This document shows positions 13,099 to 16,134 of a stretch of DNA of 26,052 nt, piece by piece. The translations under genes were made by a program, and so were the position numbers. The DNA lies in contig PEWQ01000080.1 in NCBI GenBank assembly GCA_002780065.1, forward strand, positions 57,322-83,373. Direction: 5' to 3'. Every line of letters starts with the position of its first letter. Within the stretch, counting starts at the first letter, position 1. The notes below the pieces were generated by a model that worked only from the letters and a program-made list of their open reading frames with translations, did no database searches and was not told the origin of the DNA. Source of the DNA: Candidatus Hydrogenedentes bacterium CG07_land_8_20_14_0_80_42_17. Its GTDB lineage: Bacteria; UBA8481.

Positions 13099-14427
13099 AT
13101 GATTCAGGATGCATTAAGTAATACAATCAAGATTCCTGAATTGCGTCGTCGTATATTTTTTACTGCAGTGATGCTTTTGATCTTCAGAGTTGGCTCTCAT
13201 ATACCTGTCCCAGGCGTCTCAGTGGATGGTTTGCGGGCATTTTGGGGGCGCGGCGGCGGCGGCGGAATTTTTGGAATGCTTGATATGTTTTCGGGCGGAG
13301 CATTTCAGAATTTTTCACTTTTTGCATTAGGAATAATGCCGTATATCAACGCATCGATTATTTTACAATTACTGACAGTAGCTTTTCCCGATTCCCTGGG
13401 AAAGATTGCAAAAGAGGGCGAATCCGGAAGAATGATAATTACGAAGTGGACCAGATATCTAACCGTCGTTCTTGCGGCGATACAGGGTTCAGGGCTCACT
13501 TGGTATATGATTCAGGAAGGCGCGTCTTACAATGTAATACCAAATCCCGGAGTGAGATTTTTCTTAGTGACAGTTCTTTCTTTGGCAACCGGGACGGCAT
13601 TCATCATGTGGGTCGGAGAGCAGATAACTGAGCAAGGAGTCGGAAACGGAATTTCCATTTTAATTTCCGCCGGTATCATAGTGGCAATTCCATCAGGGCT
13701 TACTAGGACATATAGATTATTGAGAGATAATGAAATCACGGTTCCCGGAGTTGCAGTGCTCTGCATAGTCATGCTATTTGCAACTGCGGCGACTGTGATA
13801 ATGACTTTAGGTCAACGCAAGGTGCCATTGCAGTATGCTCGACAGATACGAGGCAGAAAAGTGTACGGCGGTGTTGGAACATTTTTACCGCTAAGAGTTA
13901 ATGCGGCCGGAGTTATTCCTGTTATATTTGCGCAAGCTCTTCTTTCTCTGCCGACAATGTTGGCTGGTGCAATAGGCGCTGCCGGAGATCCTGACTCGTT
14001 TTTAGGAAAACTTTTTTACTTCTTTTCGCCGGGTGGAATACCGTATGAATCATTATTTGTAATAGGATTGGTTTTCTTTACCTTCTTTTATACTGCAATC
14101 ATATTGAATCCGGAGGAAGTGGCGGACAATTTAAAAAAGCAGGGAGGTTCTGTTCCGGGAATAAGGCCTGGCAAGTCGACTGCTCAACATATTGAATGGA
14201 TTATTATGCGAATCACAATGGCAGGAGCTGTCTTTCTGTGTGTGATTTGTTTACTTCCTCAGATACTTATCATGAAATTTGGAGTTCCATTTTATTTTGG
14301 CGGAACCGCGTTATTGATTGTCGTAGGAGTTCAGCTTGATACGCTGAAGCAGATGGAATCTCATTTATTGATGAGGCACTACGACGGTTTTTTGAAGAAA
14401 GGCTCAGTTCGAGGAAGGATTAGCTGA
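13099..14427 (+). CDS. secY: Protein translocase channel subunit SecY
   Basis: SecY is the pore of the SecYEG translocon in the inner membrane and passes signal-peptide proteins such as the lipoprotein encoded later in this window. The 442 residues form about ten hydrophobic spans. A glycine-rich plug region (GRGGGGGIFGMLDMFSGG, about 50-67) is followed by LGIMPYINASIILQLL. The large cytoplasmic loops include GQRKVPLQYARQIRGRK, and the late loop LKKQGGSVPGIRPGKSTAQH is conserved. The start has a good GGGAGA site. The usual next gene, adk, is absent. Confidence 0.98.
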   Translation: MIQDALSNTIKIPELRRRIFFTAVMLLIFRVGSHIPVPGVSVDGLRAFWGRGGGGGIFGMLDMFSGGAFQNFSLFALGIMPYINASIILQLLTVAFPDSLGKIAKEGESGRMIITKWTRYLTVVLAAIQGSGLTWYMIQEGASYNVIPNPGVRFFLVTVLSLATGTAFIMWVGEQITEQGVGNGISILISAGIIVAIPSGLTRTYRLLRDNEITVPGVAVLCIVMLFATAATVIMTLGQRKVPLQYARQIRGRKVYGGVGTFLPLRVNAAGVIPVIFAQALLSLPTMLAGAIGAAGDPDSFLGKLFYFFSPGGIPYESLFVIGLVFFTFFYTAIILNPEEVADNLKKQGGSVPGIRPGKSTAQHIEWIIMRITMAGAVFLCVICLLPQILIMKFGVPFYFGGTALLIVVGVQLDTLKQMESHLLMRHYDGFLKKGSVRGRIS

Positions 14428-14473
14428 TTATGAGGCGGCATCTTTTTTTTTTAGAAACTGATGTCGGTTCGAT

Positions 14474-15247
14474 ATGAGTATTGATATTAAATCGTCTGCA
14501 GAGATTGAATCGATGAAGCGGGCGAATGGTATAGTAGTTGCGGTTCATAAAGAATTGCGCGAGAAGTTGCGGCCGGGTATTTCGACTCGCGAGCTGGATA
14601 AAATTGCGTCTGGCGTAATTGCGAAGCATTCGGGCGCGATACCGGTTTTTCTCGGGTATCACGGATTTCCGGCGACGATTTGCGTATCGATCGATTCTGA
14701 AGTAGTGCATGGGATACCGTCGCAGGACCGCTTTATTGTCGAAGGATCAATAGTGTCTATCGACGTAGGCGTAAAATATCGTGGATTTGTCGGCGATGCT
14801 GCGGTAACCTATGGAGTTGGAAAAATAGATGAGGCCGGTCGGAAACTTTTGATCGCAACTCGTGACTCACTCTATTCGGCGATAGAGAAGGCGCGAGTCG
14901 GAGGAAGGCTTTCCGACATTAGCAATGCGGTTGAGAGTTTTGTTGTGCCTCGAGGCTTTTCAGTTGTGACCGAATATGTCGGTCATGGAGTAGGCCGAGA
15001 AATGCATGAGGAGCCGCAGGTCCCTAATTTTGGTCGGCCTGGTTTAGGACCTAGATTAAAGGCTGGCATGACTTTGGCGATAGAGCCGATGGTGAACGAA
15101 GGCGTTGGAGGCACGAGAGTTCTTTCGGACGGCTGGACTGTAGTTACAGCAGACGGAAGGCGATCGGCGCATTTCGAGCACAGCGTAGCTATTACAAAGG
15201 ACGGTCCGATCATATTGTCGGAAGGCTTGCCGACAGGATTGGATTGA
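14474..15247 (+). CDS. map: Methionine aminopeptidase, type I
   Basis: This enzyme removes the initiator methionine from nascent proteins whose second residue is small. The 257-residue protein is a plain type Ia enzyme without an N-terminal zinc finger. All metal and catalytic residues are present, at the same positions as in E. coli: His79, Asp97, Asp108, His171, Glu204 and Glu235, in the motifs EVVHGIP, SIDVGV, GDAAVTY, GHGVGREMHEEP, AIEPM and HFEHS. It follows secY by 46 bases that hold a run of ten T (14443-14452). No clear ribosome-binding site precedes the ATG, which is unusual for this operon. The first unit of a tandem repeat begins two bases after its stop. Confidence 0.98.
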   Translation: MSIDIKSSAEIESMKRANGIVVAVHKELREKLRPGISTRELDKIASGVIAKHSGAIPVFLGYHGFPATICVSIDSEVVHGIPSQDRFIVEGSIVSIDVGVKYRGFVGDAAVTYGVGKIDEAGRKLLIATRDSLYSAIEKARVGGRLSDISNAVESFVVPRGFSVVTEYVGHGVGREMHEEPQVPNFGRPGLGPRLKAGMTLAIEPMVNEGVGGTRVLSDGWTVVTADGRRSAHFEHSVAITKDGPIILSEGLPTGLD

Positions 15248-15249
15248 GA

Positions 15250-15385
15250 GCATCTGTTGATGCAAAGCATCCGTTGATGCAAAGCATCCGTTGATGCAAA
15301 GCATCCGTTGATGCGAAGCGTCCGTTGATGCGAAGCATCCGTTGATGCGAAGCATCCGTTGATGCGAAGCGTCAATTGACGCAAA
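15250..15385 (+). repeat. eight tandem 17-bp hairpin units between map and infA
   Basis: Eight head-to-tail 17-bp units fill almost the whole map-infA gap, with consensus GCATCCGTTGATGCRAA. They start at 15250, 15267, 15284, 15301, 15318, 15335, 15352 and 15369. Within each unit GCATC and GATGC can pair around a 4-base loop. Unit 1 has a changed loop (TGTT). Unit 5 has GCGTC, leaving a G-U pair. Unit 8 is GCGTCAATTGACGC, where both sides of the same pair changed and the stem is kept. GATGC can also pair with GCATC of the next unit around a 3-base RAA loop, so two folding registers compete. The infA ribosome-binding site lies just beyond unit 8. Confidence 0.95.
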
Positions 15386-15399
15386 GGAAAGGATAGGAT

Positions 15400-15618
15400 A
15401 TGGCGAAGGAGGATACGATTCAGGTAGAGGGAACGGTGATTGAGCCGTTGCCGAACACTATGTTTCGAGTAGAGCTCGAAAATGGGCACAAAATCCTGGC
15501 TCATATCTCTGGAAAAATGCGAATGAATTACATTCGCATACTTTCGGGCGATCGCGTTACCGTTGAATTATCTCAGTATGATTTAACGAGAGGACGCATT
15601 GTGTACCGGTTTAAGTAA
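15400..15618 (+). CDS. infA: Translation initiation factor IF-1
   Basis: IF-1 binds the 30S A site and cooperates with IF-2 and IF-3 in start selection. The 72 residues are the standard OB fold: [19 protein letters not shown], then [20 protein letters not shown], then [20 protein letters not shown], ending [14 protein letters not shown] at 15388-15393, six bases from the ATG, is the ribosome-binding site and directly follows the hairpin array, so folding of the array could influence access to it (inference). Confidence 0.98.
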
Positions 15619-15635
15619 TTTATTCGGAGTGTTGT

Positions 15636-15749
15636 ATGAAAGTTAGAGCATCGGTAAAAAAGATTTGCAATAAATGCAAGATCATAAAGCGGCGTGGAGT
15701 AGTTCGGGTAATATGCACTAATCCGCGTCATAAACAGCGTCAGGGCTGA
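15636..15749 (+). CDS. rpmJ: 50S ribosomal protein L36, zinc-binding form
   Basis: L36 is the smallest large-subunit protein and stabilises 23S rRNA near the base of the L7/L12 region. The 37 residues start [15 protein letters not shown], with zinc ligands Cys11, Cys14, Cys27 and His32, and end NPRHKQRQG, which is the C+ form. GGAG about eight bases upstream of the ATG serves as ribosome-binding site. It lies between infA and rpsM as in most bacteria. Confidence 0.97.
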
Positions 15750-15762
15750 GGAGGATTGAATA

Positions 15763-16134
15763 ATGGCACGCATTGCTGGTGTTGACCTGCCACGAGAAAA
15801 GCGGCTTCAGTTTGCTCTACCGTACATTTACGGTATAGGTAGAACAAAATCGAAGGAGATATGTGACATCGCGAAGGTCGACGGCATGAAGAAGGTAAAA
15901 GATCTTACTGACGCAGATGTGGCGGAATTACGTAAGGCTATTGAGCGGCTGAATCTGCGCATAGAAGGCGATCTCAGAGCAGAGATCATGCGCAATGTTA
16001 AACGCTTGATTGATGTCGGAACTTACAGGGGGCAGAGGCATAAGAAGAGCCTGCCGGTTCGAGGGCAAAGAACGCATACGAATGCCAGAACGCGAAAAGG
16101 CCCGCGAAAAGCTATCAATGTGAAGAGAGGCTGA
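15763..16134 (+). CDS. rpsM: 30S ribosomal protein S13
   Basis: S13 sits at the top of the 30S head, bridges to L5 and touches P-site tRNA with its C-terminal tail. The 123 residues start [20 protein letters not shown], followed by [14 protein letters not shown] and the helix-two-turn-helix region. The basic tail includes [20 protein letters not shown] and [11 protein letters not shown]. The ribosome-binding site GAGGAGG follows the rpmJ stop. Confidence 0.98.

Follow-up and report, generated by a model that had tools for sequence, protein, structure and literature searches.

A tandem array of 17-bp mini-hairpins between map and infA resembles REP-like repeats dispersed in a Candidatus Hydrogenedentes genome

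Introduction

Why does a ribosomal-protein operon carry a run of eight small hairpins directly before infA, and do these hairpins act on the operon or belong to repeat DNA that has entered it? The window, the whole 26,052-nt stretch of Candidatus Hydrogenedentes bacterium CG07_land_8_20_14_0_80_42_17 analysed here, holds an ordinary ribosomal-protein operon around the array, and an earlier note on it had proposed that base changes within the stems mark a structure that is kept, serving as an mRNA control element or a protein-binding DNA array, with replication slippage as the alternative. Set against the rest of the 2.39-Mb draft genome and a comparison set of 59 other genomes, the array looks like selfish repeat DNA of the REP type that has spread, and not like a switch dedicated to controlling the operon. 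What stands out is a REP-like unit made of a 17-bp hairpin, amplified head to tail, with at least eight stem classes sharing a common loop in one genome, and the interest lies mainly in these stem classes and in the nested arrays rather than in the ribosomal location.

The array between map and infA

The map-infA gap in the window measures 152 bp, of which the array takes up 136 bp. Outside it lie 2 nt just downstream of the map stop codon and 14 nt containing the infA ribosome-binding site (RBS); these 16 nt read GA followed by GGAAAGGATAGGAT. TRF reported a single array in the whole window (15249–15386; period 17; 8.1 copies; 92% matches) and scored it at 206, far beyond the chance level, as the best array in 100 block-shuffled windows reached 60. 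Each unit comprises a 5-bp stem, a 4-nt loop and a 3-nt purine spacer, with a predicted folding energy of -4.2 kcal/mol for the hairpin GCATC-CGTT-GATGC, and the joints between units read AAA-G or GAA-G (Table 1). All eight stems are Watson-Crick or G-U paired and units 1–7 differ from a neighbouring unit by at most one base. The description in the earlier note of a gap made almost wholly of eight 17-bp hairpin units was borne out by TRF, the unit list and a check of stems and loops, and the paired change in unit 8 and the G-T in unit 5 are both present as it had reported.

Table 1. Features of the map-infA region and of related or neighbouring repeats. Positions without a prefix refer to the window; C and L prefixes mark other parts of the genome.
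Feature	Description	Position	Strand	Evidence or remark
map	methionine aminopeptidase, upstream gene	14474..15247	+	PF00557; stop codon 15245-15247
Array	eight 17-bp units, consensus GCATC-CGTT-GATGC + RAA, REP-like mini-hairpins	15250..15385	+	TRF, unit list, related arrays genome-wide
Unit 1	GCATCTGTTGATGCAAA	15250..15266	+	loop TGTT
Units 2-4	GCATCCGTTGATGC + AAA/AAA/GAA	15267..15317	+	unit starts 15267, 15284, 15301
Unit 5	GCGTCCGTTGATGCGAA	15318..15334	+	stem GCGTC/GATGC, G-T at pair 3
Units 6-7	GCATCCGTTGATGCGAA	15335..15368	+	unit starts 15335, 15352
Unit 8	GCGTCAATTGACGCAAA	15369..15385	+	GCGTC/GACGC, G-C at pair 3; stem of the genome-wide main subfamily
infA ribosome-binding region	GGAAAGGATAGGAT	15386..15399	+	unpaired in predicted fold
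infA	IF-1, downstream gene	15400..15618	+	PF01176
rpmJ-like ORF	37 aa, between infA and rpsM	15636-15749		below the size of the default ORF list
Canonical REPs	GTAGGGACARGGCNNTGCCYTGTC	L169:4853-4950, L169:2580-2620, G000:C205:10071-12447, C108:12207-12332, C15:2695		GTAG-tagged
Y1 genes with own inverted repeats	TIR-type, not REP-type	L166:2442-3278, L168:2468-3325	reverse strand of loci	
Second dispersed 17-bp array	GACAC-CATT-GTGYC-GTA	L122:2396-2461, L129:2340-2439, L131:2340-2371, L198:2188-2287, L199:13-95		
GATTC/GAATC units	two units	L202:856-887		coding end of a 618-aa ORF

The history of the third base pair can be read from the wider family described below. Members of the family elsewhere in the genome have G-C at pair 3, so the likeliest course is that unit 8 retains the ancestral pair and units 1–7 share one derived A-T pair; a history of one or two changes is not enough to demonstrate selection. 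Both arms of a hairpin can also change at once through template switching within it. The paired change of the window array, offered in the earlier note as a sign of a kept stem, is therefore too thin by itself, and the support for pairing comes from arrays elsewhere in the genome.

Two other identities for the array were set aside. A coding reading is contradicted by stops in all three forward frames across the array, the open frames on the minus strand following from the 3 x 17 bp period, and a CRISPR-like or iteron array is contradicted by the lack of unique spacers and by stem bases that are not conserved.

Related arrays across the genome

A genome-wide search for further arrays, suggested by the earlier note, found related arrays in quantity. 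The 14-nt core GCRTCNRTTGAYGC occurs in 149 exact copies in the genome (80 on one strand, 69 on the other) and in 0–3 copies in each of the 59 other genomes, with no match to the reversed control in its own genome. Most cores lie between genes in tandem arrays with a period of 17 or 18 bp, usually within a larger palindrome ending GGAG, and the consensus of this main family is GCGTC-CATT-GACGC, with GTG, GAG, GTA, GGA or GGG as the spacer (GTG-G, 41; GAG-G, 28; GTA-G, 16; GGA-G, 16). Mapping of the stretches round repeats and transposase genes placed 66 related arrays elsewhere in the genome, each of 1–10 units, on both strands of the chromosome and beside many genes, with no clear orientation bias; 51 of the 66 lie outside any ORF of at least 80 aa. 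As many arrays sit at contig ends, the assembly evidently breaks at them and these counts are lower limits. All but two of the mapped arrays (64/66) keep at least one arm of the outer palindrome ending GGAG. Read on the other strand the element is TGGAG-GCACAGGCG-(CTC GCGTCAATGGACGC)n-CTC-GCCTGTGC, with the variant GCACGTGCG, and matching outer arms occur together in 23 cases compared to a shuffle mean of 16, a value as high being found in none of 2000 shuffles.

The window array has neither the outer palindrome nor a GTAG/GGAG tag, and its stem class forms an array at the map-infA locus only. Its kinship to the family rests on agreement with the main core at 11 of 14 bases, on the same period and layout, and on units intermediate between the window type and the main type at C84 and C141, the two places to which BLAST links the array within its own genome (3.6e-10 and 9.8e-8, respectively).

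Stem pairing between and within arrays

Arrays with other stems were sought with a generic pattern, GNRG-N4-CRTT-N4-C, required twice, which fixes the tag, loop, spacing and outermost pair and leaves four of the five stem pairs open. The pattern has 86 matches in the genome, 0 or 1 in each of the 59 others and none in the reversed control of its own genome. Together with two follow-up searches, it returned arrays with the stems GACAC/GTGTC, GCATT/AATGC, GTATC/GATAC, GATTC/GAATC, GCACC/GGCGC and GACGC/GCGCC, as well as the GCATC/GATGC of the window. Across eight stem classes, the CRTT loop, the G-N-R spacer and the 17-bp period are constant, and in four of the five stem pairs both partners vary. 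Pairing is kept in 38 of 40 stem cells (95%) compared to 64% in shuffles, the covariation score is 0.80 compared to 0.17 (reached by 0 of 500 shuffles), and, for the 25 distinct units, none of 5000 arm shuffles reaches the observed pairing. Since the generic pattern itself fixes pair 1, the evidence for covariation sits in pairs 2–5.

Within the main subfamily, a test for compensatory changes found none beyond chance: its 193 units hold 86 one-sided stem changes, mostly breaking pairs, and one paired change (1/87; shuffle mean, 1.05), which indicates that stems decay like other sequence once an array exists. The proposition that the stem and not just the sequence is kept thus holds between arrays, in the form of covarying stem classes, but fails within the main subfamily. 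A constant loop and spacer combined with stems that are free in sequence yet paired points to a hairpin that was recognised or formed as a single strand, either RNA or ssDNA, at the founding of an array.

Likeness to known REP systems and candidate transposases

The closest structural likeness is to REPMb of Marinomonas sp. MWYL1, a group-3 REP of the REPtron Mb (TnpA_REP/RAYT) with a perfect 5-bp stem and a 4-nt loop, for which stem pairs 2 and 3 could be changed without effect on cleavage, mismatches cut cleavage strongly and three loop bases were required (PMC8266576). The units described here share the 5-bp stem, a conserved 4-nt loop, a short adjoining tag and stem bases that are replaceable while pairing is kept; they differ in having a CRTT loop rather than TTTA, a loose GNRG tag (AAAG/GAAG in the window) rather than a GTAG tag 2 nt from the stem, and 17-bp head-to-tail arrays. 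In the part of Di Nocera et al. (2013; PMC3733652) drawn on here, the GTAG-1 REPs of Thauera sp. MZ1T, a different bacterium, have 5-bp stems, are mostly clustered and were first seen in a tandem-repeat database; they are likened to the present units, as tiny clustered hairpins, by description and not by sequence, and the outer palindrome of the main-family arrays is absent from what that part describes. BIMEs and REPINs, which are composite REP elements, are comparable to the main-family arrays in that these lie between two inverted arms and are dispersed between genes, whereas one to ten tandem mini-hairpins inside the outer palindrome, and a window array without outer arms, are unlike them.

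According to the same part of that source (PMC3733652), GTAG-tagged REPs are palindromes with a stem of 5–13 bp and a loop of 2–20, and alternative complementary stems are usual in REP families. The window unit lies inside this stem and loop range, the cores and mapped arrays counted above are dispersed and mainly extragenic as in REPs, and subfamilies with alternative complementary stems are present. No GTAG or close variant stands at the palindrome end of the window units (AAA-G/GAA-G), while the arrays labelled B do carry GTAG. The window array is not a GTAG REP in the strict sense and was not filed as one because it is without GTAG tag and outer palindrome and because no transposase is tied to its stem class; it works like REP-like mini-hairpins and is probably descended from them. 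CGTC-tagged REPs, described there as having an unpaired CGTC tag and an 8–9 bp stem, were rejected as a match, as CGTC here lies within the 5-bp stem.

The genome encodes four Y1_Tnp/REP_Tyr_transpos proteins, all of which match the NCBIfam REP-associated transposase model below its cut-off (57–71 of 80 bits), and a link to the window stem class was found for none of the four. At C205, GTAGGGACARGGC..GCCYTGTC REPs, both tandem and inverted, lie next to and within a Y1 gene; this repeat, GTAGGGACARGGCNNTGCCYTGTC, is a textbook GTAG REP, and the 13 observed copies of the family come in both arrangements and include compensated stem variants. At C2, an n=0 copy of the main-family palindrome lies about 150 bp upstream of a Y1 gene, downstream of which the contig ends. 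The other two Y1 genes are flanked by unrelated inverted repeats of their own, GGGGTCAGGCTTGAACTTTT and GGTGCCTGTCTTATAGTTATATAG, and one of these TIR-type flanks holds GGGGTCAG, a match to the GGGGWSAS motif of TIR-flanked relatives.

Origin of the array

At a probability of about 0.6, the array belongs to a lineage-specific set of REP-like mini-hairpins spread over the genome and arose at this site by a recent tandem expansion that was tolerated between cistrons, a reading based on the related arrays and their absence elsewhere, the constant loop, spacer and period with covarying stems, the intergenic sites, the Y1/RAYT-like genes and the GTAG-REP family. A well-paired founder unit would have been put into the short map-infA gap by REP-type (single-stranded, HUH/Y1-dependent) spread or by recombination, the pairing kept between arrays reflecting a hairpin that may be recognised or formed as a single strand at the moment of founding. 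Replication slippage at the hairpin would then have produced the further copies on the spot, and the near-identity of neighbours among units 1–7 fits such duplication. The array could persist by virtue of sitting between the map stop codon and the infA RBS and breaking neither. In the transcript, interchangeable hairpins would probably separate the cistrons, any influence on mRNA stability or coupling being mild at most. Against the REP-like reading stand the missing tag and outer palindrome in the window, the sub-cut-off transposases, two of them with inverted repeats of their own, and the loss of pairing after expansion.

An unlikely alternative, though one that stays alive, is that the array serves the map-infA junction as an mRNA element, kept by selection, that blocks 3' exonucleases or RNase processing or uncouples map and infA translation. 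It draws on the placement of the array exactly between stop codon and RBS, on the pairing intact in all eight units, on the predicted fold of the gap RNA (-60.3 kcal/mol compared to -48.0 shuffled; z, -3.4), in which the RBS is unpaired, and on the ribosomal-protein operons of Beggiatoaceae, where TAACTGA heptamer direct repeats, many just upstream of start codons, have a suggested translational role (PMC4679880), tandem and inside a ribosomal operon like the present array but as 7-bp direct repeats rather than 17-bp hairpin units. The fold, whose minimum joins arms of different units, was dropped as evidence for function, since any tandem palindrome array folds well; similar arrays lie beside many other genes without a clear orientation bias, and one-sided, pair-breaking changes are common in the family. 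In the nearest genome compared (one genome, same order; map 70% identical), the gap is 42 bp without repeats, and that genome yielded one chance-level core only and no GGAG palindrome of the main-family kind. Rfam gave no match to the window or the gap at the gathering score or E<=1, there is no intrinsic terminator (GC-rich stem and T run) at 14400-15800, and a promoter scan gave no signal. With 66 related arrays elsewhere, these results lend no support to the specific control element of the ribosomal operon that the earlier note had suggested, and although the array might regulate infA, no finding backs such a role. What keeps the mRNA element under consideration is that the naked single-locus arrays D (C12), E (C71), G (C52) and H (C198) also lie at gene junctions or just upstream of genes, positions that fit tolerated sites and would also fit a junction role. 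It is improbable that the shared loop and spacer with free stems allow a single dedicated factor, binding RNA or ssDNA, to take hold of all these arrays, so that the junction arrays, including map-infA, would be co-regulated rather than debris.

That a palindromic 17-mer arose here by chance, without kinship to the genome-wide family, and was multiplied simply by replication slippage is decidedly improbable and already disfavoured: the near-identical neighbouring units and a stem class that forms an array at this locus only would suit it, but the array matches the others in its period, in the lengths of stem and loop, in the CRTT loop and in the purine spacer, the stem of unit 8 is that of the main family, and the BLAST links and intermediate units tie the array to the family. 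Slippage is thus very likely as the expansion step, while the unit itself is not random sequence. Very improbable is an iteron-like array of double-stranded protein sites of operator, nucleoid or partition type; palindromes regularly spaced at 17 bp, in arrays of up to ~10 units on both strands, could suggest one, yet stem bases are interchangeable while pairing is kept, the opposite of what a double-strand reader needs, spacings of 17 and 18 bp are mixed, and unit number varies from 1 to 10. The protein-binding DNA array proposed earlier is disfavoured accordingly.

Taken as REP-like mini-hairpins, the stem classes would amount to a natural covariation experiment on what REP-type machinery recognises, namely loop and tag and not stem sequence. 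REP-like arrays can enter a core ribosomal operon and seemingly leave it intact, and when both bases of a pair have changed within such repeats, regulatory selection at that site is not the necessary conclusion.

Other repeats in the genome

Several further repeats were observed. Copies of the second dispersed 17-bp array, GACAC-CATT-GTGYC-GTA (Table 1), share a conserved downstream flank of approximately GCAAAAGATTTAGGGAAACTCCAG, and a GTAG-type palindrome, GTAGCCGCAGGCTTTAGCCTGCG, flanks several arrays (L122, L126, L128). An AT-rich dispersed repeat, GCAAATTGGAAAGTGCAAATTGAAAATTTTATTTTTCCAATTTTCATTTTTCAATTATTT, adjoins GC-rich palindromes (L136, L143, L171, L173, L178, L185 and many contig ends); it is locally tandem with periods of 47, 60 and 138 bp, and contigs end inside it. 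At L202, two GATTC/GAATC units supply the final codons of a 618-aa ORF that is closely followed by a response-regulator-like ORF, suggesting that hairpin units may extend reading frames.
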